Part shown: positions 2,955-61,132 of the stretch, piece by piece | How positions within the stretch are numbered: the stretch's first letter is position 1 | Layout: each line of letters starts with the position of its first letter | NCBI RefSeq assembly: GCF_025140835.1 | Contig: NZ_CP081153.1 | Span: 2,356,001 to 2,420,000 of the forward strand | DNA: 64,000 nt | Direction of reading: 5' to 3' | DNA from: Aliiroseovarius sp. M344 | GTDB taxonomy: Bacteria > Pseudomonadota > Alphaproteobacteria > Rhodobacterales > Rhodobacteraceae | Made by a program: the position numbers and the translations under genes | The notes under the pieces: model-generated | The model's database searches: none | What the model was told of the DNA's origin: nothing | Seen by the model: only the letters and a program-made list of their open reading frames with translations

Positions 2955-3365
2955 TCACTGGCCAGCATGATCTGCGATGACCGCGTCGACCTCGATTTCG
3001 ACCAGCCATTCTGGGTTCACAAATCTTGTCACAGCCATGATCGTGTCAACAGGGCGCGCATCAAGGCAATATGGTTTGCGCGCATCGATGGCTGCTTTCC
3101 AGTTCTCGATGTCGGTCAGGATAACTCTCGTGCGGACGATGTCCTGCAAACCGGAACCAGCCTGTTCCAGCGCCGCCTTGATGATCTCAAAACACTGCGT
3201 TGTCTGTGCGTGGACATCGCCAATGCCGACGGTCTTCCCATCCCGGTCGACTGGGGCGGTCCCGCCAACCGAAATATATGGCCCAACCCGCACCGCGCGG
3301 CTGAACCCGACAATCTGTTCCATCGGGTTTCCGTTTGATACCAACTGCCGCTTTAGTTCCGTCAT
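2955..3365 (-). CDS. RidA-family (YjgF/YER057c/UK114) enamine/imine deaminase
   Basis: A 136-residue cytoplasmic protein of RidA length and fold, with ISVGGTAPVD near residues 31-40, DIVRTRVILTDI around 75-86, and Arg104 in LDARPVDT at the place of the catalytic Arg of RidA (Arg105 in E. coli). RidA proteins hydrolyse reactive 2-aminoacrylate and related enamines released by PLP enzymes to keto acids and ammonia. The start follows AGAGGAGAAAGAC. The gene is one of two RidA paralogues flanking a PLP-dependent cysteate lyase (5138-6151), whose reaction intermediate is 2-aminoacrylate, which suggests a linked role. Confidence 0.85.
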   Translation of the reverse strand: MTELKRQLVSNGNPMEQIVGFSRAVRVGPYISVGGTAPVDRDGKTVGIGDVHAQTTQCFEIIKAALEQAGSGLQDIVRTRVILTDIENWKAAIDARKPYCLDARPVDTIMAVTRFVNPEWLVEIEVDAVIADHAGQ

Positions 3366-3611
3366 GTCTTTCTCCTCTACAGGTATATCGTCTCAACGCA
3401 TTGTATCGGAGTATCCGGTCTGAGAACGGTAAATCGCAGACATCGCCGAATTTGATGTGTTGCGCGCTGGTGAGAACGGCGCATGAACTTTGCAGCGGGG
3501 TCGGCACATGTCACGGCCATAGGGCCATTTCGGGTGTTTTGCGTGATTGAGGCAAATCAATGCTTCGATGCCGCCTTGCTGCTAATTTCTGGTTAGTTTG
3601 GGGGGAATGAG

Positions 3612-3890
3612 ATGATCACTTTGGATGATATTGAAGACATGTCTGCGCTTACGCGCGCGGAGATCGACGCGCTTGCAGAACACGAACACTCGAATGAGTT
3701 CGATGCCGCTGTCATGGGGGACTACCTCATGCATGTTCATCACGGCCCCCAAAAAGTTCATCAGATGATTTGCGAGGATATTCGCGCCGCATTGCACGAC
3801 GACAACGCGCCCCACGCGCGTAAACTGTTCGCTGTTCTGCGTGGGTTTCTTTACGAATACCCGGAAGCCGCCCGCGGCGTGGGCGACTAA
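3612..3890 (+). CDS. Conserved-looking hypothetical protein, histidine-rich, 92 aa
   Basis: Function not recognised. The protein is acidic and helical, with six His residues between about residues 24 and 49 (EHEHSNE, MHVHHGPQKVH), which could bind a metal. There is no signal peptide or membrane segment. A strong GGGGGG tract lies just upstream of the ATG and codon use matches the neighbours, which supports a real gene. It stands alone between a RidA gene and a LysR gene that both point leftwards. The C-terminus ends with a Gly-rich tail after an alpha-helical region (ARKLFAVLRGFLYEY). Confidence 0.6.
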   Translation: MITLDDIEDMSALTRAEIDALAEHEHSNEFDAAVMGDYLMHVHHGPQKVHQMICEDIRAALHDDNAPHARKLFAVLRGFLYEYPEAARGVGD

Positions 3891-4094
3891 CACCACAAAC
3901 CAGACCACAGCATTTGAACAGGTCGCTGGGTAGGTTATGCGCGCAGCCAGACCAACCAGATGAACCATACGCGATACTCGTTTAAATCACCTTTTTTGCC
4001 CGATACCCTGATGACGGTCACAGCTGGCCCTTGTTGACCAAATTGCGGTGCCGATGAACCCACCACCCTGAATTTCATTCCACTGGTTGAGGTC

Positions 4095-5015
4095 TTACGT
4101 CGCGTCTGGTGGGCAATCTCCGACAGTGCGAAGCTGCAGTTGCTTTGCAAGATGTTGCCATACCTGCTCGGCATGCTCAGATTGGGCCTCAGAAAGGCGC
4201 ACCATACGAATGATCAGCGGTTGCGAAGGCAAGACATCGTCGATCCGCACCAGCGAGCCATTGGACATATGATCACCAACAAGGGATTGCGGCAACCATG
4301 CGATACCAATGCCCGTTAGCACCAGTTGCAGCATCGCCAGTGTCAGTGCGGTTTCGGCGATTGCCGACACAGTGGTGCCTTTTGGCAAGCGCGGGTTGAT
4401 CATTCGGGCAAATACCTGCCCCAGAAAGACCTCAGGTGGATAGCTTATCATCGGAAGAAACGCCACGTCGGCCTTGGTGCGGCCGTTCGGCGTCGCGACC
4501 GGGATCAACATGTCCGTCCCAAGCGTGACCGTTTCGAAAGCATTGCCGGGCTCGGGTGTTTCATCACCCGGAAGCGCATACATAATCGCAAAATCGACCT
4601 GCTTGGAGATCAGATGCATCAGGCATTCGTCCTGATTGCCTGAACGCACCCGCGTTGATGTCTGACCATTTGCGGTCAAAGCCAGAACCACTTGCGGCGA
4701 CACGGTGGTCGTCAGCGCGTGCTGACAGACAAAACCCAGTGATTTCGCGGTCTGGTCGCTGGCGGTCTTCATTGTGTGGCGCAACGTGTGCAATCGCGCG
4801 CTAAGATCACGCAGCTCGGGTTCAAGCGCCTGCACACCGGGCATAAGGGTTACAGGTTTGCGGCGGCGGTCAAACAGCGTCGCACCGATGCTGTCTTCGA
4901 TAATTCGCACCCGGCGCGTAAAGGCCGACTGAGTCAGCAGCCGTCGTTCCGCCGCCCGCGCCAGCGAACCGCCATCAAGCACCGCCAAAATATCGTCAAT
5001 CCATTCAAGCCGCAT
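4095..5015 (-). CDS. LysR-family transcriptional regulator (likely regulator of cuyA)
   Basis: A 306-residue LysR regulator. The N-terminal winged helix-turn-helix (residues about 1-60) has SLARAAERRLLTQSAFTRRVRIIEDSIGA, and a periplasmic-binding-fold effector domain follows. It is transcribed divergently from the cuyA-racemase genes across a 122-base gap that contains a perfect TTGCA-N5-TGCAA dyad, the classic layout for LysR control of its neighbour. In known cysteate-degrading roseobacters a LysR (CuyR) sits next to cuyA; calling this one CuyR is an inference. No clear Shine-Dalgarno precedes the start. Confidence 0.8.
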   Translation of the reverse strand: MRLEWIDDILAVLDGGSLARAAERRLLTQSAFTRRVRIIEDSIGATLFDRRRKPVTLMPGVQALEPELRDLSARLHTLRHTMKTASDQTAKSLGFVCQHALTTTVSPQVVLALTANGQTSTRVRSGNQDECLMHLISKQVDFAIMYALPGDETPEPGNAFETVTLGTDMLIPVATPNGRTKADVAFLPMISYPPEVFLGQVFARMINPRLPKGTTVSAIAETALTLAMLQLVLTGIGIAWLPQSLVGDHMSNGSLVRIDDVLPSQPLIIRMVRLSEAQSEHAEQVWQHLAKQLQLRTVGDCPPDAT

Positions 5016-5044
5016 GGAACATCGATAGCGTAACCCGCTGTAAC

Positions 5045-5059
5045 TTGCAATTAATGCAA
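5045..5059. promoter_or_regulatory. LysR-type operator dyad TTGCA-N5-TGCAA
   Basis: A perfect 5-5-5 inverted repeat in the divergent LysR/cuyA intergenic region. It includes the T-N11-A core of LysR recognition sites. A further TTGCA-like half-site (TTTTGCATTAGG) begins near 5073, where an activation half-site would be expected. This is the probable binding site of the LysR at 4095-5015. Confidence 0.55.
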
Positions 5060-5137
5060 CTTATTGGCCAAATTTTGCATTAGGAACTGCCCTCTTTAGT
5101 GGATAAATTGATGAAAGCCAAAATTAGGAGTCCTCCC

Positions 5138-6151
5138 ATGCATCTCGCCCGCTTTCCCCGCCTGCACCTTGCCCACCTGCCCACGCCGCTTGAGCCGATG
5201 AAGCGGCTGTCCAAGGAACTGGGTTGCGAGATCTGGATCAAGCGCGACGATTGCACTGGCATGTCGACGGGCGGAAACAAGACCCGCAAGCTTGAATTCC
5301 TGATGGCGGAAGCCGAGGCACAGGGCGCTGACATGGTCATGACGCAGGGGGCGACCCAAACCAACCATGGCCGCCAGACCGCGGCATTTGCCGCCAAGCT
5401 GGGCCTTGACTGTCACATCCTTTTGGAAGACCGCACCGGCTATCAGGATGGCAACTACAACACCAACGGCAATGTGCTGCTTGATCATCTGCATGGCGCC
5501 ACGACCGAGAAATTCCCCGGTGGCCACGATATGGTGGCCGAGATGGAAAAAGCCGCCGAGACATTTCGTGCAGCCGGGCGCAATGTCTATGTCATCCCCG
5601 GTGGCGGGTCCAATGCGACCGGCGCGCTTGGTTATGTGAACGCTGCCTTCGAGCTGTTGTCGCAGGCGAATGACGCAGGGTTGAGGATCGACCGTCTGGT
5701 GCATGCCACCGGGTCATCCGGCACCCAAGCCGGGCTTGTCACCGGTATGTGCGCGATGAATTCTCTAGTACCCGTGCTGGGTATTGGCACGCGCGCGCCG
5801 CAGCCCAAACAAGAGCAAATGGTGTTTGATCTGGCCTGCAAGACAGCGGAAAAACTGGGCTGCCCCGGTGTGGTCAAACGTGAGGATGTGATGGCCAATA
5901 CCAATTATGTTGGCGAAGGGTATGGCCTGCCGACCGAAAGCGGGATCGAGGCGATCCGCATGTTTGCCGAATTGGAAGGCATCCTTCTGGACCCCTGCTA
6001 TTCGGCCAAGGGTGCCGCTGGCCTGATCGATCTGGCGCGCAAGGGCGAGTTCAAGGATCAGCGCGTCGTATTTCTGCATACCGGTGGCGCCGCGGCATTG
6101 GGTGGCTATGACTTCGCCTTTGACAACTCCAGCCGCTGGGTGAATGTCTGA
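5138..6151 (+). CDS. cuyA: L-cysteate sulfo-lyase / D-cysteine desulfhydrase family (PLP)
   Basis: A 337-residue PLP enzyme of the ACC deaminase/D-cysteine desulfhydrase fold. The PLP lysine is Lys51 in [20 protein letters not shown] precedes it, then [27 protein letters not shown], the [18 protein letters not shown] phosphate-binding region, and a C-terminal HTGGAAAL. Overall it reads as CuyA, which splits L-cysteate to pyruvate, ammonia and sulfite. I take the ATG at 5138, with AGGAG seven bases upstream; an in-frame start at 5099 lacks a ribosome site. The racemase follows after three bases. No sulfite exporter or oxidase is visible nearby, so D-cysteine or another beta-substituted alanine remains possible as substrate. 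Confidence 0.82.
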
Positions 6152-6154
6152 CCA

Positions 6155-6871
6155 ATGGCCGATCTTCGCACCATCGGGGTTCTTGGTGGCATGGGTCCCG
6201 AAGCAACCGTCCTACTTCAGCGCAAGCTGATCGAGGCGGTGCAGCCTCGCGATGACAGCGATCATATTCCTTTGCTCATTGACATGAACCCGCAGGTTCC
6301 GTCACGGATCGCCCATCTGATTGAGAGCAACGGCACCGATCCGGGCCCAACGCTTGCTGAGATGGCGCAGCGGCTTCAGACCGCCGGGGCCGTGGCATTG
6401 GCAATGCCCTGCAATACCGCACACCACTATGCGAAGGCGATCACCGACGCGGTCGATATTCCCCTTCTGAACATGGTCGATCTGGCTGCGGACCATGCGG
6501 CCAAAACGCTTGGGACTGGGGGATGTGTCGGTCTGTTGGCCTCGCCTGCAGTGCGGCGTATCCGACTTTTTGAAACGGCGCTTTCAGCGCGCGGTTTGTC
6601 TGTTATCTGGCCCGCAAAAGATCAGCCCATGCTGGATGCGATCCGTGCAATCAAGGCGGGCGACGCCGGTACGTCGCCCCGTGACACGCTGCTGTCGGCG
6701 TCAACCGAGCTGGCCGCTGCAGGAGCAGAGCTGCAATTCGTCGCCTGCTCTGAATTCTCTATCATCGCCGACAGTGTCGCACCGGAGGCCAATGTTCTGG
6801 ACACTATTGATTTGCTCACAAGTTCGATTATCGAGACTTCACGGGCAGGTTTCTCGGGCAAATCTGAATAA
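6155..6871 (+). CDS. Aspartate/glutamate racemase family protein
   Basis: A 238-residue cytoplasmic protein of the PLP-independent Asp/Glu racemase fold. It opens with TIGVLGGMGPEAT, and has both catalytic cysteines: Cys86 in MPCNTAHH and Cys198 in VACSEFS. These act as the two-base pair that inverts the alpha carbon. It starts three bases after cuyA, so the two are co-transcribed. The obvious reading is that it inverts an acidic amino acid, possibly a sulfonated aspartate analogue such as D-cysteate, to supply the lyase; that substrate is inferred only from the neighbourhood. Confidence 0.82.
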   Translation: MADLRTIGVLGGMGPEATVLLQRKLIEAVQPRDDSDHIPLLIDMNPQVPSRIAHLIESNGTDPGPTLAEMAQRLQTAGAVALAMPCNTAHHYAKAITDAVDIPLLNMVDLAADHAAKTLGTGGCVGLLASPAVRRIRLFETALSARGLSVIWPAKDQPMLDAIRAIKAGDAGTSPRDTLLSASTELAAAGAELQFVACSEFSIIADSVAPEANVLDTIDLLTSSIIETSRAGFSGKSE

Positions 6872-6966
6872 TCCGTGGGCCAATTACGCAAGCGCTGATT
6901 GCACACTGCTACCTCCCAGCTCAGATTCGGTAATTGCCCGGCCTGCACCCATAGAAAGGAAGACCC

Positions 6967-7314
6967 ATGACCCAGATCGAACGAATGCACAGCACCGGCC
7001 GGATGAGCCGGATCGTCATCCATGGTGAAACCATTTATCTTTGCGGCCAAGTGGGTGAGGCCGGGGCCAGCGTGGCAGACCAGACCCGCCAGACCCTAGC
7101 AAAGATCGAAGGCCTTCTGGCCGAAGCAGGCTCTGACAAGACCAAGATCCTGCAAGCGATCATCTGGCTGGCTTCGATGGACGATTTTGCTGAGATGAAC
7201 GCGGTTTGGGATGATTGGGTCCTCCCTGGCACAGAACCCGCCCGCGCTTGTGGCGAAGCGGCACTGGCCCGACCCGAATTGAAGGTCGAGATTACCATCA
7301 CCGCCGCACGCTAG
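6967..7314 (+). CDS. RidA-family protein, short type (115 aa)
   Basis: A second RidA-like protein, from a different subgroup than the one at 2955-3365. It has IYLCGQVGEAG near residues 23-33, ILQAIIWLASMDDFAEMNAVWDDWV, and Arg93 in EPARACGEAAL at the catalytic Arg position, followed by KVEITITA. The start follows AAAGGAAGACCC. It lies 95 bases after the racemase, same strand, so it probably belongs to the cuyA transcript. A role in clearing 2-aminoacrylate released by the lyase is plausible. Confidence 0.82.
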   Translation: MTQIERMHSTGRMSRIVIHGETIYLCGQVGEAGASVADQTRQTLAKIEGLLAEAGSDKTKILQAIIWLASMDDFAEMNAVWDDWVLPGTEPARACGEAALARPELKVEITITAAR

Positions 7315-7318
7315 CGCT

Positions 7319-8203
7319 TTACAACAATTCCCAGAGCTTGCGCGCTGTCGGATCGAAAGCCGCTGGATTGGACAGCGCAGAAATCGTCAAACTGGTGCAC
7401 CAACCCTCGTCCCCAATCGGTACCAACACGCCGTTGGCAAGTTCTGCAGCAATGGCTGTTTCGGGCATCCATGCAAACCCGCTTCCGGTCACAAGACGTC
7501 GCTTGATTGTCTCGACCAGGCTATCGACATAGATCTTTTCAACATTCAGCGGTTGGCGGCCGATAATATTCTCAACCACCATGCCCAAGAACGACGACCG
7601 CTCATAGGCCAGATAAGGGATCGGTGGGCCGTCCTGCCGGCCAAGATCCCAGCCCCGTGCGCGCACCGCTTCTGTGGCGGCCACCGGGATCAGCCGATCG
7701 GTCAACAGGTCTTTTCGCGCAAATGCGGCCCCGTCTATCATGGGTGAGACGGAATGATGGTAATAACACAGCATCACATCCACCGCGCCCTCTACCAAAA
7801 GTTCACAACAGGTGCTCAGGGAATCAGACACCACACGCGTGCGTAGGTCGCGAATTTGCCGTTGCATCTCTTCAATCCGAGTGGCGAGGTAGTTCACTGA
7901 AATCGTGTGAAGTACCGAAAATCGGACAAATTGGCTGTCTCCCCGATCAGCATCGCGCAATGATTGCCGCGATTCCGACAGTTGAGAAATCGCGGCTAGC
8001 GCGACCGGAAGAAACTGCTGACCCGCTTCTGTTAACTGCACCGGATAAGTCGCACGGTTGACCAAGGGCAAACCGACCCAACTTTCCAACGCCTTGATTC
8101 TGCGGCTGAAAGCCGATTGCGTAATGTTCCTTTCGTCAGAGGCGCGGGTGAAGTTCAAGGTCCGAGCCAGGCATTCAAAATCACGTATCCAATTTAAGTC
8201 CAT
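7319..8203 (-). CDS. LysR-family transcriptional regulator
   Basis: A 294-residue LysR regulator with helix-turn-helix at residues about 10-45 (LARTLNFTRASDERNITQSAFSRRIKALE, read in two halves) and a substrate-binding-like effector domain. I take the ATG at 8203 (MDLNWIRDF), the normal LysR beginning; an in-frame TTG further upstream is less likely. It converges on the RidA gene (4-base gap) and is divergent from the ABC importer at 8471, so it is the likely regulator of that operon. It is paralogous in style to the LysR at 4095-5015, with similar N-termini. Confidence 0.8.
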   Translation of the reverse strand: MDLNWIRDFECLARTLNFTRASDERNITQSAFSRRIKALESWVGLPLVNRATYPVQLTEAGQQFLPVALAAISQLSESRQSLRDADRGDSQFVRFSVLHTISVNYLATRIEEMQRQIRDLRTRVVSDSLSTCCELLVEGAVDVMLCYYHHSVSPMIDGAAFARKDLLTDRLIPVAATEAVRARGWDLGRQDGPPIPYLAYERSSFLGMVVENIIGRQPLNVEKIYVDSLVETIKRRLVTGSGFAWMPETAIAAELANGVLVPIGDEGWCTSLTISALSNPAAFDPTARKLWELL

Positions 8204-8238
8204 GCGTTGCTGCACCTGTTTTTGGGATCCGCCCAAGT

Positions 8239-8251
8239 ATAGTTAATCTAT
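8239..8251. promoter_or_regulatory. Candidate LysR operator, ATAG-N5-CTAT dyad
   Basis: A perfect 4-5-4 inverted repeat, 36 bases upstream of the second LysR start and in the 267-base divergent region before the ABC importer. A second ATAG half-site (ATAGTTTGATGAA) begins near 8264. Its place and size fit autoregulation by the LysR. Confidence 0.4.
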
Positions 8252-8470
8252 GCAAAAAAAGAATAGTTTGATGAAATGTTCGAATTGGCCCTCTTAAAAC
8301 TTCGCGGTCTAGACTTTTGGGCAGTGCCCGGCGCGCTGTCTAAAAACCAGTTCCCGGTCCACATTTGCGGCACTTAAGCCAATTTAGCGCGAAGTCTCCG
8401 CTCAGTGTGGAACCCAAAAGAACCAAAATAAGCGCCAGAAAACCGGCGCATCTCAACAGAGGAGACTACA

Positions 8471-9436
8471 ATGAAAACCAAACTGAAATCGCTTGGCCTT
8501 GCGGCTGCAGTCAGCGTCTTTTCGATGCCCGCGCTGGCGGCCGAAGAGGTGAAAATCGGTGTGCCATCTTGGACCGGCGCGCAAGCCATTGCCCACCTTC
8601 TGGGCGCGGTTGTTGAAATGCGGATTGGCGGAACGGTTGAATTCGTGCCCGGCAACAATGCCACGATTTTCCAAGCCATGGACCAGGGCAAGGGTGATAT
8701 TGATGTGCACCCCGACGTCTGGCTACCGAACCAGGAAAGCTTTACCAAGAAATACGTCGACGAAGCAGGCACCGTGACGTTGTCCTCGAACCCTTACGAG
8801 GGCAATCAGGGGTTTTGCGTCTCGAAGGACTTCGGTGAAGCAAACAACATCACTGATATCGCCGATCTTGGTCGTCCGGACGTAGCGGCGTTGATGGACA
8901 GCGATGGCAACGGCAAGGGCGAGATGTGGATCGGCGCACCTGGCTGGGCGTCGGCCAACGTCAACGAGGTGAAGACCCGTGATTATGGCCTGCTTGATTT
9001 CATCGAACCCGTCCGCGCAGAAGAGAGCGTTAAGACCGCGCGCATCAAGGACAGTATCGCCAAGGGCGAAGGCTATGCCTTCTACTGCTACAAACCGCAC
9101 GCCGTTTGGTACATGTTCGACGTCCAGATGCTCAGCGAACCAACATACGATCCGGCGAAATACGTGATGGTGCAACCGTCTGACGATGCCGATTGGTATG
9201 AGAAGTCCATGGTTGCCTCCAAAGACGCATTGAAGAACGTGCAGATCGCTTGGTCGAACTCGCTGGAAGGCCGCTCACCGGCTATTGCCGAGTTCTTTGC
9301 GAATTTCGCGCTGACGGCTGACGACGTCTCGGGCTTCGCCTTTGAGATCAGCGGCAAGGGCCGTGATCCGGCAGAGGTTGCGCGCGAATGGGTTGAAGCC
9401 AACCCCGACCGCGTGGACGCTTGGCTGGGTCTCTGA
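8471..9436 (+). CDS. Glycine betaine/proline-type ABC transporter, periplasmic binding protein (OpuAC/ProX family)
   Basis: A 321-residue binding protein with a Sec signal peptide of about 23 residues (cleavage after MPALA). The mature protein has the OpuAC fold: VKIGVPSWTGAQA at the N-terminus, FVPGNNATIFQAMDQGKGDIDVHPDVWLPN in sections around residues 58-85, and several Trp/Tyr residues (PSW, WIGAPGWAS, YKPHAVWYM) that could form the aromatic box for a quaternary ammonium group. GAGGAGACTACA precedes the ATG. It heads an importer operon with the ATPase and permease. Substrate could be a betaine or a sulfonate zwitterion given the cuyA neighbourhood. Confidence 0.88.
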   Translation: MKTKLKSLGLAAAVSVFSMPALAAEEVKIGVPSWTGAQAIAHLLGAVVEMRIGGTVEFVPGNNATIFQAMDQGKGDIDVHPDVWLPNQESFTKKYVDEAGTVTLSSNPYEGNQGFCVSKDFGEANNITDIADLGRPDVAALMDSDGNGKGEMWIGAPGWASANVNEVKTRDYGLLDFIEPVRAEESVKTARIKDSIAKGEGYAFYCYKPHAVWYMFDVQMLSEPTYDPAKYVMVQPSDDADWYEKSMVASKDALKNVQIAWSNSLEGRSPAIAEFFANFALTADDVSGFAFEISGKGRDPAEVAREWVEANPDRVDAWLGL

Positions 9437-9523
9437 TCCCGCCACCGCTTACAAACTTGCCGACACCGAAACCCATTGGTGTCGGCCACACCATCTACCC
9501 CTGAAATCACCGGGATGCAGCGC

Positions 9524-10579
9524 ATGAACCCTGAAACCGTCGTAGAAATCTCCAATGTCTGGAAGATTTTCGGGCATAAGCCGCAAGCTGCTTTACAGGC
9601 GATCCGTGATCGGGGTCTGAACAAGGCTGAAGTACTTGCAGAATTGGGCGCTGTCGTGGGTGTTGCCGACGTAAGCCTCTCGGTCAACCGCGGCGAGATT
9701 TTTTGCATCATGGGCCTTTCAGGCAGTGGTAAATCCACGCTGGTGCGCCATTTCAACAGATTACTAGAGCCCACTGCCGGTAAGATCGAGATCGAGGGGA
9801 CCGACGTCATGGCGCTCGGACCGAAAGAGCTTCAAGCGTTTCGCAACCGAAAAATTGGAATGGTTTTCCAGAATTTCGCCCTCATGCCGCACCGCTCGGT
9901 GCTTGATAATGTGGCGATGCCATTGGAAATTCGTCAGGTTGCCAAAAATGAACGAATGCGCCAAGCGGCGGCTATCCTCGACATCGTCGAACTTGGCGCC
10001 TGGGGGTCGAAATTCGCCCATGAATTGTCGGGCGGCATGCAACAGCGTGTCGGCCTTGCCCGCGCACTGGCCGCCAACCCGGATGTCTTGTTGATGGACG
10101 AGCCATTTTCGGCGCTTGACCCTCTTATCCGCCGCCAATTGCAGGACGAGTTCATTCGCCTGTCCAAGATCCTGAAGAAAACCACAATCTTCATCACCCA
10201 CGACCTTGATGAAGCGGTTCGCATCGGCGACCGGATCGCCATTATGCGCGACGGCAAGATGGTGCAGATGGGCACTGCAGAAGATATTGTTATGCATCCT
10301 GCGGACGACTACGTGGCCGACTTTGTCGCCGGCATCTCGCGCCTCAAAGTGGTGCATGCCCATGCTGTTATGCAGCCGCTCGCAGCCTATGTCAGCACCA
10401 GCGGCCCTATCGCCGCGGATGGGCCACGGGTCGCGGAAAGCGAAACCCTTAGCAATCTTATCAACTTGGCGATCGACGACGAAAAACCGATCGTTGTTCA
10501 GTCGGACGGAAAAGACCTGGGTGTTATTACCCGCGCCGACCTTCTGCGCACCGTGATCGAAGGGACTGAAGTATCATGA
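9524..10579 (+). CDS. Glycine betaine/proline-type ABC transporter, ATP-binding protein (ProV/OpuAA family)
   Basis: About 351 residues. It has the ProV-specific N-terminal insertion (KIFGHKPQAALQAIRDRGL, then EVLAELGAVVGVADV) before Walker A GLSGSGKST, then signature LSGGMQQR, Walker B VLLMDEPFSALD and the H-loop THD. A degenerate CBS-like region occupies the C-terminal hundred residues. I choose ATG 9524, eight bases after a GGGA; ATG 9515 and TTG 9476 in frame are possible. Its stop overlaps the permease start (ATGA). It powers import by the OpuAC-like protein upstream. Confidence 0.88.
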   Translation: MNPETVVEISNVWKIFGHKPQAALQAIRDRGLNKAEVLAELGAVVGVADVSLSVNRGEIFCIMGLSGSGKSTLVRHFNRLLEPTAGKIEIEGTDVMALGPKELQAFRNRKIGMVFQNFALMPHRSVLDNVAMPLEIRQVAKNERMRQAAAILDIVELGAWGSKFAHELSGGMQQRVGLARALAANPDVLLMDEPFSALDPLIRRQLQDEFIRLSKILKKTTIFITHDLDEAVRIGDRIAIMRDGKMVQMGTAEDIVMHPADDYVADFVAGISRLKVVHAHAVMQPLAAYVSTSGPIAADGPRVAESETLSNLINLAIDDEKPIVVQSDGKDLGVITRADLLRTVIEGTEVS

Positions 10580-12126
10580 GTGATCTTGATGACTTGGGCG
10601 TTAACCCGCTGGAAGATACTGAAAGTGAAGCCGCTCTGGCTTATGCGGAAGAACGGCGCGAAAACATCCGCACCTTCGTTCGCACCAGCCCCGATTACTA
10701 CATTCGCAACTTCGACAAGATCGGCGCTTCGTCCCGGTTTACCGCCACATTCAACCTGATGGCTGGCCTGTTTGGTCCGATCTGGTTTGGCGCGCGCGGG
10801 CTGTGGTCTTGGGCCCTGCCTTTCCTGATCCTTGAGACCCTTGCCTTTGTGCAAATTGCGCGCGGTCTTTTCGGCGATCTGGCCGCAGATGCCATGGCCC
10901 GCATTGCCTCGATCGAAGGCACGCTTGAACTGCGCCGCGAACAACTTGCTGCCGCCATCGAAAGCAACTCCGAGAAAATCGATGTCTATCGCCGCACCGT
11001 CGAGTCGCTGGAAGAAAACATCGGCGGCATCCGTGCCGAGGCCGAAACCTTGGCCGCCGAAGGCCCGATGATTGTGCTTACGGGCATCATCATCTTGCTG
11101 ATCGCCAAGGCGGCACAGTCACTGGTTGCCAACTGGGCGCTCGAAGCGCGGTTTTCTGATTGGCTGTCCGACCGCTCGGTCCGCTCTGCCATGCCGGTAA
11201 CGCATATTGTATTCAGTGCCGTCTTTATGGCGCTGATCGTCGCGGCCGCCATGCTTCACTACAGCTTTCCAGGCCGTTTTTCGCTGCTCAGCCATTTCCC
11301 CACCGACCCCGACATCCGCCTGACCAGTATCTCTTGGGTCGAAGATTTTATCGCCTGGTGTGTGCGCAACTCGGAGGCTTTCTTCGATGGTCTGACATTC
11401 GGTATCCGCGCGCTGCTTGATGCTCTTGAAGTCATACTCGTCCAGACCCCGTGGATCGTGATCGCCAGCTTGATCGTGCTGCTGACTTGGCTCACCGCTG
11501 GCATACGCACGGCCATCTACTCGGGCGCTTTCCTCGCCTATATGGGCCTTCTGGGCTTTTGGGAGGGTGCAATGACGACGCTTGCATTGCTGGGTACCGC
11601 AGCCTGCCTATCGATTGTGATCGGCATTCCACTGGGCATGTTCGCCGCCCGCCGCCCGCGATTTTACAGCTTCATTCAGCCGATCATGGATTTCATGCAG
11701 ACCATGCCTGCCTTTGTCTTCATGGTGCCCGTGATTGCGTTCTTTGGCGTCGGAAAACCAGCCGCGGTTGTGGTTACGATGATCTTTGGCGGTACCCCCG
11801 TCGTACGGCTGACTGTGCTGGGTTTGCGCGGTGTGCCTGAAAGCGTACGCGAAGCGGCGATCAGCTTTGGTGCAAACAAATGGTATCTGTTGACCAAGGT
11901 CGATCTGCCTTTGGCCAGCCCGTCAATCCGCGCAGGCATCAACCAGACCATAATGCTGTCGTTGGCCATGGTCGTCGTTGCCTCGTTGATCGGTGCCAAA
12001 GGGCTGGGTGAGGATGTTCTGGAAGCGCTGCAATATGCCAATGTCGGTCAGGGTATTCTCGCCGGATTCTCGATCTTGTTCTGTGCCATGATCCTTGATC
12101 GCATCGTTCAGGGGGGACGCAAATGA
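10576..12126 (+). CDS. Glycine betaine/proline-type ABC permease (ProW/OpuAB family) with long N-terminal extension
   Basis: A 516-residue permease, far longer than the usual 280-350. The C-terminal half (from about residue 300) is a normal ProW/MetI permease, with FMQTMPAFVFMVPVIAFFGVGKPAA, VRLTVLGLRGVPESVREAA as coupling loop, and SLIGAKGLGEDVLEAL. The first 230 residues are extra: a hydrophobic hairpin around 55-100, a charged, probably coiled-coil stretch around 110-155 (ARIASIEGTLELRREQL and on to ESLEENI), and further membrane segments around 160-240. The extension may sense the membrane or osmotic state, by analogy with added sensor parts in other betaine carriers. It is coupled by ATGA overlaps on both sides. 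Confidence 0.85.
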   Translation: MSDLDDLGVNPLEDTESEAALAYAEERRENIRTFVRTSPDYYIRNFDKIGASSRFTATFNLMAGLFGPIWFGARGLWSWALPFLILETLAFVQIARGLFGDLAADAMARIASIEGTLELRREQLAAAIESNSEKIDVYRRTVESLEENIGGIRAEAETLAAEGPMIVLTGIIILLIAKAAQSLVANWALEARFSDWLSDRSVRSAMPVTHIVFSAVFMALIVAAAMLHYSFPGRFSLLSHFPTDPDIRLTSISWVEDFIAWCVRNSEAFFDGLTFGIRALLDALEVILVQTPWIVIASLIVLLTWLTAGIRTAIYSGAFLAYMGLLGFWEGAMTTLALLGTAACLSIVIGIPLGMFAARRPRFYSFIQPIMDFMQTMPAFVFMVPVIAFFGVGKPAAVVVTMIFGGTPVVRLTVLGLRGVPESVREAAISFGANKWYLLTKVDLPLASPSIRAGINQTIMLSLAMVVVASLIGAKGLGEDVLEALQYANVGQGILAGFSILFCAMILDRIVQGGRK

Positions 12127-12842
12127 ACCCAGTTGTCTTTGTTCATGGGTTTATGGGTGGCAGTCGACAATGGCAGGGGCAAATCGACTCTGACGCTGGA
12201 TATGAGGTCATAAGTCTGGATTTGCCGGGATATGGCGAGAACGCGCAAAGCGAGGCCCTCGACAGCATTGCCAGCTATGCTGAATGGGCGCTGGACGAAC
12301 TGAGCGCGCGCGGCGTCGAGCGATTCAACTTGGTTGGCCATTCGATGGGCGGGATGGTCGCGCAAGAAATGGTCGTACAAACCCCGGACCGCGTTGACCG
12401 GCTCGTACTCTACGGCACTGGCGCCACAGGGGTCCTGCCGGGCCGGTTCGAGACCATCTGCACGTCCAAACGCCGCGCGCTTGCAGATGGGCCGCAAACT
12501 ACAGCCAGACGGATCGCGGCGACCTGGTTTCTTGAGCGGGAAGAAGCTCCTGGTTATGAGGCCTGCGCCGCGATTGCTGAACAATGCAGACTTCAGGCTA
12601 TGCTCAATGGGCTCGATGCAATGGAAAACTGGAGCGGTGTCGAGCGCCTAGAAGATATCAAGGCCAAAACACTGGTCATCTGGGGCGACCGTGATCGCAC
12701 CTACCCCTGGTGCCAGACCGAACAATTGTGGAAATCTATCTCCAACGCGAACCTTTCTGTGCTGCCAGGTTGCGCCCATGCCGCGCACTTGGAAAAGCCG
12801 GAGCTGTTCAACAAAATCTTGGGGGATTTCTTTTCAGCCTGA
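12123..12842 (+). CDS. Alpha/beta-hydrolase fold protein
   Basis: A 239-residue cytoplasmic hydrolase. It has the oxyanion-hole HGFMGGSRQW (HG at residues 8-9), the nucleophile Ser74 in VGHSMGGM, the acid in WGDRDRTYP and the His in GCAHAAHLEKP. That is a complete triad of an esterase, lactonase or C-C hydrolase. It begins within the permease stop codon, so it is the fourth gene of the importer operon and probably acts on the imported compound, for example splitting an ester or lactone. No signal peptide is visible. The exact substrate cannot be told from sequence. Confidence 0.82.
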   Translation: MNPVVFVHGFMGGSRQWQGQIDSDAGYEVISLDLPGYGENAQSEALDSIASYAEWALDELSARGVERFNLVGHSMGGMVAQEMVVQTPDRVDRLVLYGTGATGVLPGRFETICTSKRRALADGPQTTARRIAATWFLEREEAPGYEACAAIAEQCRLQAMLNGLDAMENWSGVERLEDIKAKTLVIWGDRDRTYPWCQTEQLWKSISNANLSVLPGCAHAAHLEKPELFNKILGDFFSA

Positions 12843-13935: not shown

Positions 13936-14961
13936 ATGATCAAATTCAATAACTTGGCTGGCGCATCAGCCCTTGCAGTCTTCGCTACAGCAGGTGCGGC
14001 TTCGGCTGACGACCTGACATTCTACTGCTCTGCACAAGAAGACTGGTGCCAGTTGATGGCCAACAGTTTTCAGGACGCGACCGGAATCGATGTTGCGATG
14101 ACGCGCAAGTCGTCAGGGGAAACGTTTGCACAAATCAAGGCGGAAAGCTCGAACCCACGCGGCGACGTTTGGTGGGGCGGCACGGGTGACCCCCATCTTC
14201 AAGCAGCTGAAGAAGGTTTGACGGCAGAATACATGTCACCAATGCGCGACCAACTGCATCCTTGGGCTATTAGCCAAGCGGAAAGTGCTGGCAACAGAAC
14301 CATCGGGATTTACTCTGGCGCACTGGGCTACGGCTATAACACCGATCTGTTGGCTGCCAACAATTTGCCAACCCCTGCCTGTTGGGAAGACCTGCTCAAG
14401 CCAGAATTCAAAGGCCACGTACAGATGGCAAACCCAAACTCATCTGGCACCGCATACACAACGCTTGCGACGATGGTGCAGCTGTTTGGCGAAGAAGAAG
14501 GCTTTGAGTTTATGGCCGGCCTGCATGCCAACATAAACCAATACACCAAGTCAGGCTCTGCGCCGATCAAGGCTGCAGGCCGTGGTGAAAACACCATCGG
14601 TATCGTGTTTATGCATGATGCGGTGAAGCAAGCCGTCAGCGGCTTCCCGATTAACGTCGTGGCACCATGCGAAGGCACAGGTTATGAAATCGGGTCTATG
14701 TCGATCATCGAGGGCGCTCGGAACATGGACAGCGCGAAAGCGTTTTACGATTGGGCACTAAGTGCCGAAGCTCAGAACCTCGCGTTGGAGGTTAGTGCGT
14801 TTCAAGTGCCATCAAATGTGAATGCAAAGACATCAGAGAGCGCGCCGGACATGAGCACGATCAAGTTGATCGACTATGATTTCCGCACCTATGGCTCGTC
14901 TAACACACGTCAGCGCCTTCTGAAACGATGGGATGATGAGGTGTCGGTCCTGCCGCAGTAA
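13936..14961 (+). CDS. ABC transporter periplasmic binding protein, AfuA/FbpA type (probable sugar-phosphate binder)
   Basis: A 341-residue binding protein with a Sec signal peptide (about residues 1-24, cleavage after ASA). The mature part reads FYCSAQEDWCQLMANSF, VAMTRKSSGETFAQIKAES, GDVWWGGTGDPHLQAAEEGL: the AfuA layout. Such proteins are often called iron(III)-binding, but AfuA of Actinobacillus and enteric pathogens binds hexose-6-phosphates and sedoheptulose-7-phosphate. The iron-coordinating tyrosine pair of FbpA is not evident. It heads afuABC and is flanked by three phosphatase genes, which favours a phosphorylated sugar or polyol. GGGGGGACC precedes the ATG. Confidence 0.8.
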   Translation: MIKFNNLAGASALAVFATAGAASADDLTFYCSAQEDWCQLMANSFQDATGIDVAMTRKSSGETFAQIKAESSNPRGDVWWGGTGDPHLQAAEEGLTAEYMSPMRDQLHPWAISQAESAGNRTIGIYSGALGYGYNTDLLAANNLPTPACWEDLLKPEFKGHVQMANPNSSGTAYTTLATMVQLFGEEEGFEFMAGLHANINQYTKSGSAPIKAAGRGENTIGIVFMHDAVKQAVSGFPINVVAPCEGTGYEIGSMSIIEGARNMDSAKAFYDWALSAEAQNLALEVSAFQVPSNVNAKTSESAPDMSTIKLIDYDFRTYGSSNTRQRLLKRWDDEVSVLPQ

Positions 14962-14963
14962 CC

Positions 14964-17177
14964 ATGCGTCAGGTCACGTCCGATAAAGCGACCAACCCGG
15001 TTTTGATCTTCTGGATCATTGCCGGGTTAGCTGGCTTTTTTATCCTTCCCTGGTACGGGATCGAGGACTTTTTCCGCTTTGAATGGCTTGTCGATGGCTA
15101 TCCATTCGATAGCGACTACGCCCCCGGAATCTTCTTGATCGGGCAAGGGGAAAAGCTTTGGCTGGCCCCGCTGATCGCGCCGTTGCTTGCCCCGATAGCC
15201 GTTCTGAAAAAAAGTAAATCAGACCCGATCTATGCACAGGTTCTTATCCTTGCAGGCGCATTTGGCTTTGGTTGGTTGGTTCTGCAGGGCTTTTCCATTG
15301 GTATTCGAGGTTGGAATTTCGGCTGGGCGACGGCCTTGTTTGGCGAATTGGACGATCGGCAATATGGCATGGGCTATGGCGCACTGATCAGCGCCGCTGC
15401 GTTCCTTTTCATCTTCACGCAGGGCCTTGCTGCACGGGGGGCCATCAACGGCGATGTCTTTGTTGTAAGCTCTATCGGCGGCGTCGTTGTGATCGTCACG
15501 GCTTTCGTGTTTTTCCCTATCGCCAAGATGTTGACCGCTGCGTTTATCACACAAGACGGGGGCTATTCTGTCGCCGTCTTCTTTTCCAAGTTTTTTGACG
15601 ACAGGTTGTGGGGACTAAGTTGCCTGACAGGTGGACGATGTGGCGTCGCCTGGAACTCTTTGTTCCTTGCGGTATGCGTTGGTCTTATCACGACCATCCT
15701 TGGACTGGTTTTCGCTTTGGTCGTGACCCGGTCTGGGTTCCGCTTCAAACGCGGTTTGCGCGCCTTGACGGTGTTGCCGATCATCACGCCTCCCTTTGTG
15801 ATTGGCTTGGCGTTGATACTGTTGTTCGGCCTTTCCGGAACAGTGACCGTATGGGTCTCAGATCTTTTAGGGGTGCAACCGACGCGTTGGTTATACGGAC
15901 TGCCCGGCATCTTGATTGCACAAACACTGGCCTTCACACCGATCGCCTTTCTGGTGCTGATTGGCGTGGTCGAAGGCGTCTCTCCGTCAATGGAGGAAGC
16001 AGCACAAACCTTGCGCGCAACCAAGTGGCAAGTTTTCAAGACAGTGTCTTTACCGCTCATGCGGCCGGGCTTGGCCAATGCTTTTTTGCTGGGCTTTATT
16101 GAAAGCATGGCGGATTTTGGCAACCCGTTGGTGTTGGGTGGCAACTACGATGTGCTTTCAACCGAGATCTTCTTTGCCATTGTAGGCGCGCAATATGATC
16201 AAGGCCAAGCGGCCGTGCTGGCGATGGTTCTGCTGTTCTTTACGCTTGGAGCTTTCTACGCGCAGCGCCGCTGGTTGGGCAAAAAAAGTTATACGACGGT
16301 ATCGGGCAAAGGCGACAGCGGCGTGCATCCTCATATGCCAACGGCGCTTTCACTACCTGTACTTGCAATCGCCATGATCTGGGCCGCGTTTACAATTGTT
16401 GTCTATCTGATGATCTTCTACGGCTCAGTTGTTGAGCTTTGGGGCGTGAACAACACCCTGACGTTAAAACATTATGGCACAGCCTTCTCGCTTCGCATTG
16501 AAGAAGAGGGCATCCGCTGGACCGGAGCAGCATGGGATAGTTTCTGGACCACCCTCAAGATTGCGGGGATTGCAGCACCGCTGACGGCTGTCGTTGGCCT
16601 CATCACCGCATATTTGCTGACACGCCAGACATTTGCTGGCAAAAATGCGTTTGAATTCGGGACTATGCTGTCCTTTGCCATTCCGGGCACGGTTATCGGT
16701 GTCAGCTATATTCTGGCGTTCAACGTCCCCCCGATTGAGATCACCGGCACCGGTATCATCCTTGTCGTCAGCTTCATTTTCCGCAACATGCCTGTCGGTG
16801 TGCGTGCAGGTATTGCCAGCATGTCACAGCTCGATAAATCTCTGGATGAAAGCTCGCTGACCCTTGGCGCAAATTCTTGGCAAACGTTCCGCCGGGTGAT
16901 CCTTCCGCTGCTGCGCCCCGCCATTCTTGCAGCACTGGTTTACAGTTTCGTCAGAGCGATGACGGCGATCTCTGCCGTGATCTTCCTTGTCTCTGCTGAA
17001 TACAATATGGCGACGAGCTACATCATTGGCAGAGTTGAAAATAACGACTACGGCCTTGCGATTGCTTATTCCACCACGCTGATCTTTGTCATGTTGTGCG
17101 TTGTTCTGGCGATGCAGCTCATCGTTGGCCGCACCAAGATCGGGCGGCGCATGACCCAGTCACGCACCAATGTTTAG
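14964..17177 (+). CDS. ABC transporter permease, fused double-domain AfuB type
   Basis: A 737-residue inner-membrane protein with about 15 hydrophobic segments. Two MetI permease modules are fused in one chain. The first coupling loop is around residues 340-365 (EGVSPSMEEAAQTLRATKW, then LPLMRPGLANA) and the second around 620-650 (LDESSLTLGANSWQTF, then LPLLRPAILAA). Fused permeases are typical of AfuB and FbpB. It starts two bases after afuA. It forms the channel for the binding protein at 13936 and is driven by the ATPase at 17190. Confidence 0.88.
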   Translation: MRQVTSDKATNPVLIFWIIAGLAGFFILPWYGIEDFFRFEWLVDGYPFDSDYAPGIFLIGQGEKLWLAPLIAPLLAPIAVLKKSKSDPIYAQVLILAGAFGFGWLVLQGFSIGIRGWNFGWATALFGELDDRQYGMGYGALISAAAFLFIFTQGLAARGAINGDVFVVSSIGGVVVIVTAFVFFPIAKMLTAAFITQDGGYSVAVFFSKFFDDRLWGLSCLTGGRCGVAWNSLFLAVCVGLITTILGLVFALVVTRSGFRFKRGLRALTVLPIITPPFVIGLALILLFGLSGTVTVWVSDLLGVQPTRWLYGLPGILIAQTLAFTPIAFLVLIGVVEGVSPSMEEAAQTLRATKWQVFKTVSLPLMRPGLANAFLLGFIESMADFGNPLVLGGNYDVLSTEIFFAIVGAQYDQGQAAVLAMVLLFFTLGAFYAQRRWLGKKSYTTVSGKGDSGVHPHMPTALSLPVLAIAMIWAAFTIVVYLMIFYGSVVELWGVNNTLTLKHYGTAFSLRIEEEGIRWTGAAWDSFWTTLKIAGIAAPLTAVVGLITAYLLTRQTFAGKNAFEFGTMLSFAIPGTVIGVSYILAFNVPPIEITGTGIILVVSFIFRNMPVGVRAGIASMSQLDKSLDESSLTLGANSWQTFRRVILPLLRPAILAALVYSFVRAMTAISAVIFLVSAEYNMATSYIIGRVENNDYGLAIAYSTTLIFVMLCVVLAMQLIVGRTKIGRRMTQSRTNV

Positions 17178-17189
17178 GGAACCAAAGAC

Positions 17190-18254
17190 ATGAGCATCAA
17201 TGCAAAAGCGGCGCCCGTCAGTTTCCGCAATGTCACAAAGGTCTACGGCAAAGATGTCGTCGCCGTTGACGACATAAATTTGGAAATCGAAGCAGGTAAA
17301 CTGGTTACACTGCTGGGGCCGTCTGGGTGCGGCAAGACCACAACCCTGCGGATGATTGCGGGGCTCGAGATTGCAACGCGCGGGTCAATTTTTATCGGTG
17401 AACAAGATGTCACCCTGCTGCCCGCGACAGATCGCGACGTCTCTATGGTGTTCCAGTCTTATGCGCTTTTCCCTCATATGACGGTGATGGAAAACGTCTC
17501 TTACGGGTTGGGGTTTTCGGGATTTGATAAGTCGGAAATACAGGACCGTGCCCAACATGGGCTTGATCTGGTGGGCCTGAAGGGCTTCGGCAATCGCCTG
17601 CCGTCAGAATTGTCAGGCGGACAGCAACAGCGTGTGGCCGTCGCGCGGGCGCTTGTGTTGGAGCCTCAGGTGCTGTTGTTTGATGAACCTCTGTCGAACC
17701 TCGATGCGAAACTACGTCGACAGGTTCGCGAAGATATTCGCGACATCCAGAAAAACCTTGGCTTGACTGTCGTCTACGTCACTCATGATCAAGAAGAAGC
17801 ATTGGCAGTCTCGGACGAGATCGTGGTCATGCGGAACGCGTCCATCGCGCAGGTCGGCCATCCAAGGGAACTTTACGACGCGCCAGCCGACCGGTTTGTT
17901 GCCGATTTCATCGGCGAGGCGAATATCATTCCGTGTGAGATCACCAGTGTTCAGGGCGATGTCGCTCACATCCGTATGGGCGATCTGGCGCATCAACTGC
18001 CTGCACGCGGGCTTGCCCCTGGACCGGCGAACCTCGCTGTGCGCCCAACACGGTTTAAGCTCGGTGTTTCTGAAGGGCTGGCAATGAACGTGGCAAAAGC
18101 GACCTATGTGGGCAGTCGGATGGAATACACTTTGGAAGCCAGCTTCGGTCAGGTCTTTGTTGTCAGCGAAGATGTCGACACGCCGCTTTCAGCGGGTGCA
18201 AATGTGACGGTGGGTTTGGATTCTGTTGGCCCGGTCCTCTTACCAGAAGATTAA
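17190..18254 (+). CDS. ABC transporter ATP-binding protein, AfuC/PotA type
   Basis: A 354-residue ATPase: Walker A GPSGCGKTT near residue 45, Q-loop MVFQSYALFPH, signature LSGGQQQR, Walker B VLLFDEPLSNLD, H-loop VTHDQEEA. The last 110 residues form a TOBE domain, the usual regulatory tail of CUT1/PotA/AfuC ATPases. It follows the permease after 12 bases and completes the importer. Its final 4 bases overlap the end of the convergent inositol-phosphatase gene, leaving no space for a terminator between them. Confidence 0.88.
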   Translation: MSINAKAAPVSFRNVTKVYGKDVVAVDDINLEIEAGKLVTLLGPSGCGKTTTLRMIAGLEIATRGSIFIGEQDVTLLPATDRDVSMVFQSYALFPHMTVMENVSYGLGFSGFDKSEIQDRAQHGLDLVGLKGFGNRLPSELSGGQQQRVAVARALVLEPQVLLFDEPLSNLDAKLRRQVREDIRDIQKNLGLTVVYVTHDQEEALAVSDEIVVMRNASIAQVGHPRELYDAPADRFVADFIGEANIIPCEITSVQGDVAHIRMGDLAHQLPARGLAPGPANLAVRPTRFKLGVSEGLAMNVAKATYVGSRMEYTLEASFGQVFVVSEDVDTPLSAGANVTVGLDSVGPVLLPED

Positions 18255-60839: not shown

Positions 60840-60905
60840 CACGGGTTGACCACCCTTTCCCCCATCCCTATCTTCCCTGTCGCTGCCCCTGCCGGGGTGG
60901 CGACA

Positions 60906-61052
60906 TTCTCAGGGCGGGGCGAAATTCCCCACCGGCGGTAAAGGGGCGTAATGCCTCAAGCCCGCGAGCGCTTTGTGTTTCTAATGAAACACTTGGGTCA
61001 GCAGATCCGGTGAAACTCCGGAGCCGACGGTTAAAGTCCGGATGGAAGAGGA
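60906..61052 (+). ncRNA. FMN riboswitch (RFN element)
   Basis: The conserved RFN blocks are all here: CAGGGCGGGGCGAAATTCC, then ACCGGCGGTAA, AGCCCGCGAGCGC, a variable arm, GGTCAGCAGATCCGGTGAAA, and CCGGAGCCGACGGTTAAAG ending GATGGAAGAGG. It binds flavin mononucleotide. It lies in the leader of the RibN-type transporter, about 80 bases before its ATG, and so should lower riboflavin uptake when FMN is plentiful. Confidence 0.97.
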
Positions 61053-61132
61053 TGGTCAAAGGCGCTCGGGGTTCCCGCGCGCCTTGTCCTTCTGCCTTGG
61101 GTCAACGCGTAAGGAAGAAAGGACACTACGCA

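Follow-up and report, generated by a model that had tools for sequence, protein, structure and literature searches.

Which compound feeds the cysteate-degrading enzymes of Aliiroseovarius sp. M344, and do the importer and hydrolase genes beside them serve the same pathway? We analysed a 64,000-nt stretch of its genome (NZ_CP081153.1 positions 2,356,001 to 2,420,000; hereafter the window), in which an original prediction had marked positions 2955..12842 as one catabolic island holding a cysteate lyase (CuyA), an Asp/Glu-type racemase (CuyB), two Rid-family proteins, an OpuA/ProU-type importer and a Ser hydrolase, here termed ABH for alpha/beta-hydrolase. The evidence supports that the importer, the hydrolase and CuyA belong together. 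The enzymes are known, and their combination is real and repeatedly assembled. The prediction had the grouping and the involvement of cysteate right; it erred on the first Rid protein and on the importance it gave to Rid proteins.

The check that the prediction itself had named, whether importer and cuyA occur together in other genomes, came out in its favor. Our sample comprised 149 family genomes with a single representative per genus, the window's own included; we called the binding protein present at ≥65% identity (12 of the 30 genomes with matches, those at 34–51%, were not counted) and a CuyA homologue at E≤1e-80. The binding protein was found in 18 genomes and a CuyA homologue in 54. 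CuyA homologues occurred in 17 of the 18 importer genomes against 37 of the remaining 131 (p=6.5e-8; this and the later Fisher p values treat genomes as independent and are overstated), and lay within 10 kb of the importer in 13 of the 18. In G043, G141, G109 and G078, CuyA stood elsewhere in the genome, away from the importer, and in G054 a relative 40% identical sat beside the importer and failed the CuyA cut-off. Many genomes keep the order CuyA-importer-ABH in one direction. We further assembled 120 related loci (L061–L180), omitting one of each pair of contigs recognized by their length as duplicates (L061/L105, L064/L117, L076/L128) from tree and residue counts. On a CuyA tree of 68 rows, the OpuA context required seven changes, at least five of them forced by well-supported branches, versus 22.7 on average for shuffled labels, with the caveats that some changes may be losses, that L077 sits on a very long branch and that near-copies cluster labels. 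Importer-linked CuyA fell into groups with identities of 86–95% (the window's own), 61–65%, 53–56% and, for Kiloniella-Litoreibacter, 53–56%; of seven importer- or ABH-linked CuyA scanned, all passed the family cut-off except L077. We tentatively read the importer-ABH half as a module that was joined to different CuyA lineages, or swapped for tripartite ATP-independent periplasmic (TRAP) or taurine-type importers with ABH kept. The literature searched, which left subscription journals mostly outside, gave no description of the importer-ABH-CuyA combination.

These patterns bear on a simpler account, in which an ordinary betaine or dimethylsulfoniopropionate (DMSP)-type osmolyte importer stands beside cuyA by chance. 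Membership in the OpuAC family, retention of most of the RnDmpX aromatic cage for DMSP, and the importer's occurrence without nearby CuyA in some genomes and in SAR11 would fit such an account; the co-occurrence with CuyA, the several context changes involving different CuyA lineages and the one-direction gene order argue against it. So does the binding pocket. DmpXWV is a DMSP importer (structure 7yle), and in a comparison mapped by hand from the pocket residues given in the available portion of PMC10030565, the window protein shares the OpuAC fold and keeps three cage Trp, an Ala and a key Tyr (Trp35, Trp84, Trp152, Ala153, Tyr200), at ~19% identity and with Thr64, Glu113 and Trp202 of DmpX replaced by Asn63, Gln113 and Tyr207. 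On these pocket residues and the low identity we rejected DmpXWV as the importer's identity, and we consider a chance neighbor of osmolyte type highly improbable. The importer set itself is complete, as predicted, with an OpuAC-type binding protein, a ProV-type ATPase and a single ProW-type permease; the named ProX, ProV (equivalog), ProW and choline equivalogs all scored below their cut-offs, and the proV subfamily model scored above. Separately, one related locus (L080:6823-11752) carries a different OpuAC-type importer, its binding protein 33% identical, beside a cut-off-passing CuyA and without ABH.

Within the window, positions 4095-12842 form what we tentatively describe as a two-operon sulfonate-catabolic locus:
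4095..5015, minus strand: LysR1, a LysR-type regulator divergent from cuyA in a CuyR-like position, retained next to CuyA in related loci
5138..6151, plus strand: CuyA, predicted D-cysteate sulfo-lyase (NF052482, 518 bits; open reading frame (ORF) from GTG 5099)
6155..6871, plus strand: CuyB, predicted cysteate racemase (NF052483, 274 bits; Cys86, Cys198)
6967..7314, plus strand: RidA2, a Rid-family protein and optional member (Arg retained)
7319..8236, minus strand: LysR2, a LysR-type regulator divergent from the importer, retained beside importer or TRAP-ABH loci
8471..9436, plus strand: OpuAC-type periplasmic substrate-binding protein
9476..10579, plus strand: ProV/ChoV-type ATPase (TIGR01186, 345 bits, cut-off 327)
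10576..12126, plus strand: ProW/ChoW-type permease (PF00528; best NCBIfam match TIGR03416, 254 bits, below the cut-off of 363)
12123..12842, plus strand: ABH (PF00561, 102 bits; Ser74-Asp191-His219)

The right part of the predicted island stands and its left edge does not, since RidA1 (2955-3365) and a 92-aa ORF (3612-3890) lie outside the conserved locus: neither had a match in the 120 related loci, whose stretches reach at most ~10 kb from the anchor gene and covered their place. Four-base overlaps join the ATPase gene to the permease gene and the permease gene to the ABH gene, which makes co-translation of importer and ABH very likely. Only a single cuyA match was found in the M344 genome. 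GC content over 4–13 kb (0.535–0.590) stays inside the range of the surroundings, and we found no sign of a recent foreign origin.

CuyA and CuyB both exceeded their curated NCBIfam cut-offs (518 versus 450 bits and 274 versus 190 bits), so that racemase plus lyase amounts to known chemistry; from these equivalog assignments it follows that the predicted functions are racemization of cysteate by CuyB and elimination of sulfite from D-cysteate by CuyA. The pyridoxal 5'-phosphate (PLP) lyase had been proposed with Lys51 as its catalytic lysine. The enzyme holds and the number does not: the PLP lysine, kept in 66/66 relatives, is Lys61 counted from GTG 5099, where the ORF opens, or Lys48 from ATG 5138, where relatives begin and which is the likelier start. 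Both Cys expected of an Asp/Glu-type racemase are present in CuyB, at 86 and 198. The Ser of the SNH motif is Thr88 in the window CuyA, with Thr in 12/66 relatives and Ser in 54/66; the motif reads QTNHGRQ (Thr88, Gly91) versus QSNHARQ or QSNHVRQ in most relatives, and the Thr-Gly form recurs in 12/66. According to the introduction of PMC11382572, CuyB converts the L and D forms of cysteate into each other and CuyA acts preferentially on D-cysteate, with Liu et al. 2024 (J Biol Chem 300:107371) cited as the source for the CuyB-CuyA pathway. Because exactly that pair is described there, the racemase-lyase half is not new. The same paper gives the racemase of Ruegeria pomeroyi as unknown, and likewise its sulfopyruvate or cysteinolate aminotransferase; older papers, as far as their accessible text goes, name CuyA an L-cysteate lyase (PMC4334477, PMC10507020). 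By eye, DegT/DnrJ-type aminotransferase-like proteins adjoin CuyA or a HisD-like dehydrogenase at L084:5335-6534 (minus strand), L096:10594-11802 (plus strand) and L153:7348-8547 (minus strand), and are candidates for a sulfopyruvate or cysteinolate aminotransferase. A search of the M344 genome for the sulfite exporter YeiH (TIGR00698) gave two incomplete hits ~2.6 kb from each other (G000:C1:282950-283489 and 286095-286472), and neither reached the cut-off. YeiH-like putative exporters occur in the ABH loci L090, L119, L132, L139 and L153, the L139 protein scoring below the YeiH cut-off.

The second operon raises the question of what its hydrolase acts on. The Ser hydrolase of the prediction is an alpha/beta-hydrolase whose triad, Ser74-Asp191-His219, is kept in 94/94 relatives; its structure model was nearest to an enol-lactonase and to esterases when hydrolase and binding protein were compared against chosen lists of fold families. 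A profile built from 15 sequences placed ABH in 22 of the 149 family genomes at E≤1e-70 and in 27 at 1e-25, the five with E>1e-70 being dropped before counting; absences are uncertain because scoring was limited to 18 candidates in each genome. CuyA was present in 20 of the 22 ABH genomes (p=1.3e-8) and in six of the seven lacking the window-type importer (p=0.001). ABH thus tracks CuyA rather than any single importer. We then used the profile in a scan of named genomes, taking the best 80 of 454 loci, many on short contigs. CuyA lay in the fetched stretch of 35/58 loci outside SAR11 versus 0/22 in SAR11; by importer class, it accompanied 25 of the 36 OpuA-type ABH loci outside SAR11, eight of the 12 TRAP loci and two of the three taurine-type loci (L132 and L143; not L135). 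One TRAP binding protein tested was nearest to the isethionate-binding 8t9t (61.5 bits, a near tie with 4p1e at 59.9 bits), and one taurine-type protein exceeded its equivalog cut-off (317 versus 304). At L091, an Opp-type transporter adjoins a CuyA-ABH pair on the opposite strand. That the same position is filled by importers of unrelated classes that have sulfonate relatives hints at a small sulfonate as the cargo.

A different order of events would have the importer carry cysteate itself and ABH act after the lyase, as a RutD-like 2-aminoacrylate hydrolase replacing or working alongside a Rid protein. The protein superfamilies match those of the Rut pathway; the score against the RutD NCBIfam model, 81.6 bits, is below its cut-off of 238.5. 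Among the 20 CuyA-anchored loci (L081–L100), ABH was found in three (L090, L091, L095) and absent from 17; cysteate use therefore does not in general involve ABH. SAR11 weighs in the same direction. In the 22 SAR11 loci, all found through ABH (36–45% identical), 14 carry the binding protein (63–70% identical), and the importer directly follows ABH in ten. None of the 22 has CuyA in its stretch, and none of the 19 genomes searched (E≤1e-5), mostly single-cell or metagenome assemblies, held a clear CuyA, the lone match of 25.7 bits over 85 residues not being counted. An importer and ABH without CuyA make it more likely that ABH acts before the lyase, and we regard a post-lyase hydrolase as unlikely. 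In 13 of the 22 SAR11 loci, a gene for an Asp-type racemase lies upstream of ABH and points the other way (adjoining in nine, one gene between in four); the one scanned, at L164, retains both Cys and falls below the CuyB cut-off (160 versus 190). We also considered whether SAR11 might use ComDE and Xsc: of 19 genomes, 13 had an Xsc match above the cut-off and none had ComE, ComD not being part of the search.

Cysteinolate, an algal osmolyte according to PMC8703288, might instead be the compound taken up, with its oxidation to cysteate taking place elsewhere in the cell, ahead of CuyB and CuyA. As a zwitterionic sulfonate and osmolyte it suits an OpuA-type importer, and several loci have a HisD-like dehydrogenase close to CuyA, although a HisD-like gene was found in none of the 36 OpuA-type ABH loci outside SAR11 and the hydrolase would be left without a role; we judge this very unlikely.

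The explanation we prefer, tentatively and just short of calling it probable, is uptake of a hydrolysable zwitterionic sulfonate that ABH cleaves to cysteate. In it, the OpuA-type importer (8471-12126) would take up a small zwitterionic sulfonate, either a hydrolysable cysteate derivative or cysteate, and ABH would cut an ester or lactone bond, less likely an amide, freeing cysteate in the least certain step. CuyB would then interconvert L- and D-cysteate, and CuyA would eliminate sulfite from the D form to give pyruvate and ammonium. From genome context, importer and ABH most likely serve the same pathway; that ABH cleaves the imported compound to cysteate has less support. A wider version, in which ABH and interchangeable importers (OpuA-type, TRAP, taurine-type ATP-binding cassette, perhaps Opp-type) make up an undescribed route that supplies CuyA and, for some SAR11, a fate independent of CuyA, is possible and somewhat doubtful.

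The Rid proteins fit this scheme only at its margin. Two Rid genes with a catalytic Arg had been proposed; both genes are there, and RidA2 retains the Arg, whereas RidA1 has an Asp aligned to the Arg of the PAR motif in its solved relative 2dyy, presumably the catalytic residue. RidA2 recurs in one of the 120 related loci (L101, Pacificoceanicola onchidii, 90% identity), the only one of five laid out like the window's locus (L063, L101, L102, L104, L106) to have it, and RidA1 in none. On these counts and the lost Arg we reject Rid proteins as the core of the pathway, and the predicted racemase-lyase-Rid route is not upheld. RidA2, where present, may accelerate hydrolysis of the 2-aminoacrylate intermediate.

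Both predicted LysR genes are present, and each may control one half of the locus. Between LysR1 and cuyA, a block at 5045..5084 (TTGCAA-TGCAA-TTAT with a GCATTAG/GAATTAG end) is largely kept in eight aligned sequences; the region separating LysR2 from the importer has a block at 8249..8286 (TATGCA..GAATAGTTTGATG..TTCGAATT) with few changes across 15. Judged by sequence, both are possible LysR operators. Upstream, at 715-2920, lies a tungstate-type importer (TupB-ATPase-TupA-like; TupA and TupB below equivalog cut-offs), which we excluded from the locus, as none of the 120 related loci had a TupA match, though its place is near the edge of many stretches. Directly downstream, at 13936-18254, is a putative 2-aminoethylphosphonate-type importer (relatives of TIGR03261, TIGR03262 and TIGR03265, below their cut-offs), with one FeSBP-like match among the related loci, in L160. 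A flavin mononucleotide (FMN) riboswitch lies at 60901-61057 (117 bits).

Algae and bacteria are known to trade in sulfonates such as 2,3-dihydroxypropane-1-sulfonate (DHPS), taurine and cysteate. The conserved unit of importer, hydrolase and lyase suggests either a further compound of this class or a second type of cysteate importer, and the binding protein is a direct handle for finding what is imported. Across 65/65 relatives, from roseobacters to SAR11, its pocket positions do not vary, and the protein occurs in 18 of the 147 genomes sampled from the SAR11 order, so that one binding measurement would transfer to abundant ocean bacteria; the literature searched gave nothing usable on the ligand of the SAR11 orthologue. 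If the route with interchangeable importers is real, it would mean an unrecognized organosulfur nutrient common to roseobacters, some Gammaproteobacteria and SAR11.

Besides DmpXWV, three known systems resemble the locus. In the Rut pathway, RutC and RutD are a Rid protein and an alpha/beta-hydrolase acting on aminoacrylate. The likeness (RutD-type structure 3v48) is that of the same two superfamilies within one catabolic locus, whereas the window Rid and hydrolase proteins fall below the RutC and RutD cut-offs and RidA2 is nearly always absent from related loci. The CuyB-CuyA cysteate pathway is matched by both enzymes, which score over their cut-offs, by adjoining genes and by a divergent LysR gene; here the pair is accompanied by a second LysR, ABH and an OpuA-type importer, in a cluster without a sulfite exporter gene. 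Finally, cuyTUVW (SPO3040-3043) is described in PMC10130141 as the cysteate transporter of R. pomeroyi, unique or nearly so to that strain compared with 13 others. It shares with the window a tie between cysteate uptake and sulfonate use in a roseobacter and is described there as a four-gene system. The importer in the window could be what other roseobacters use.

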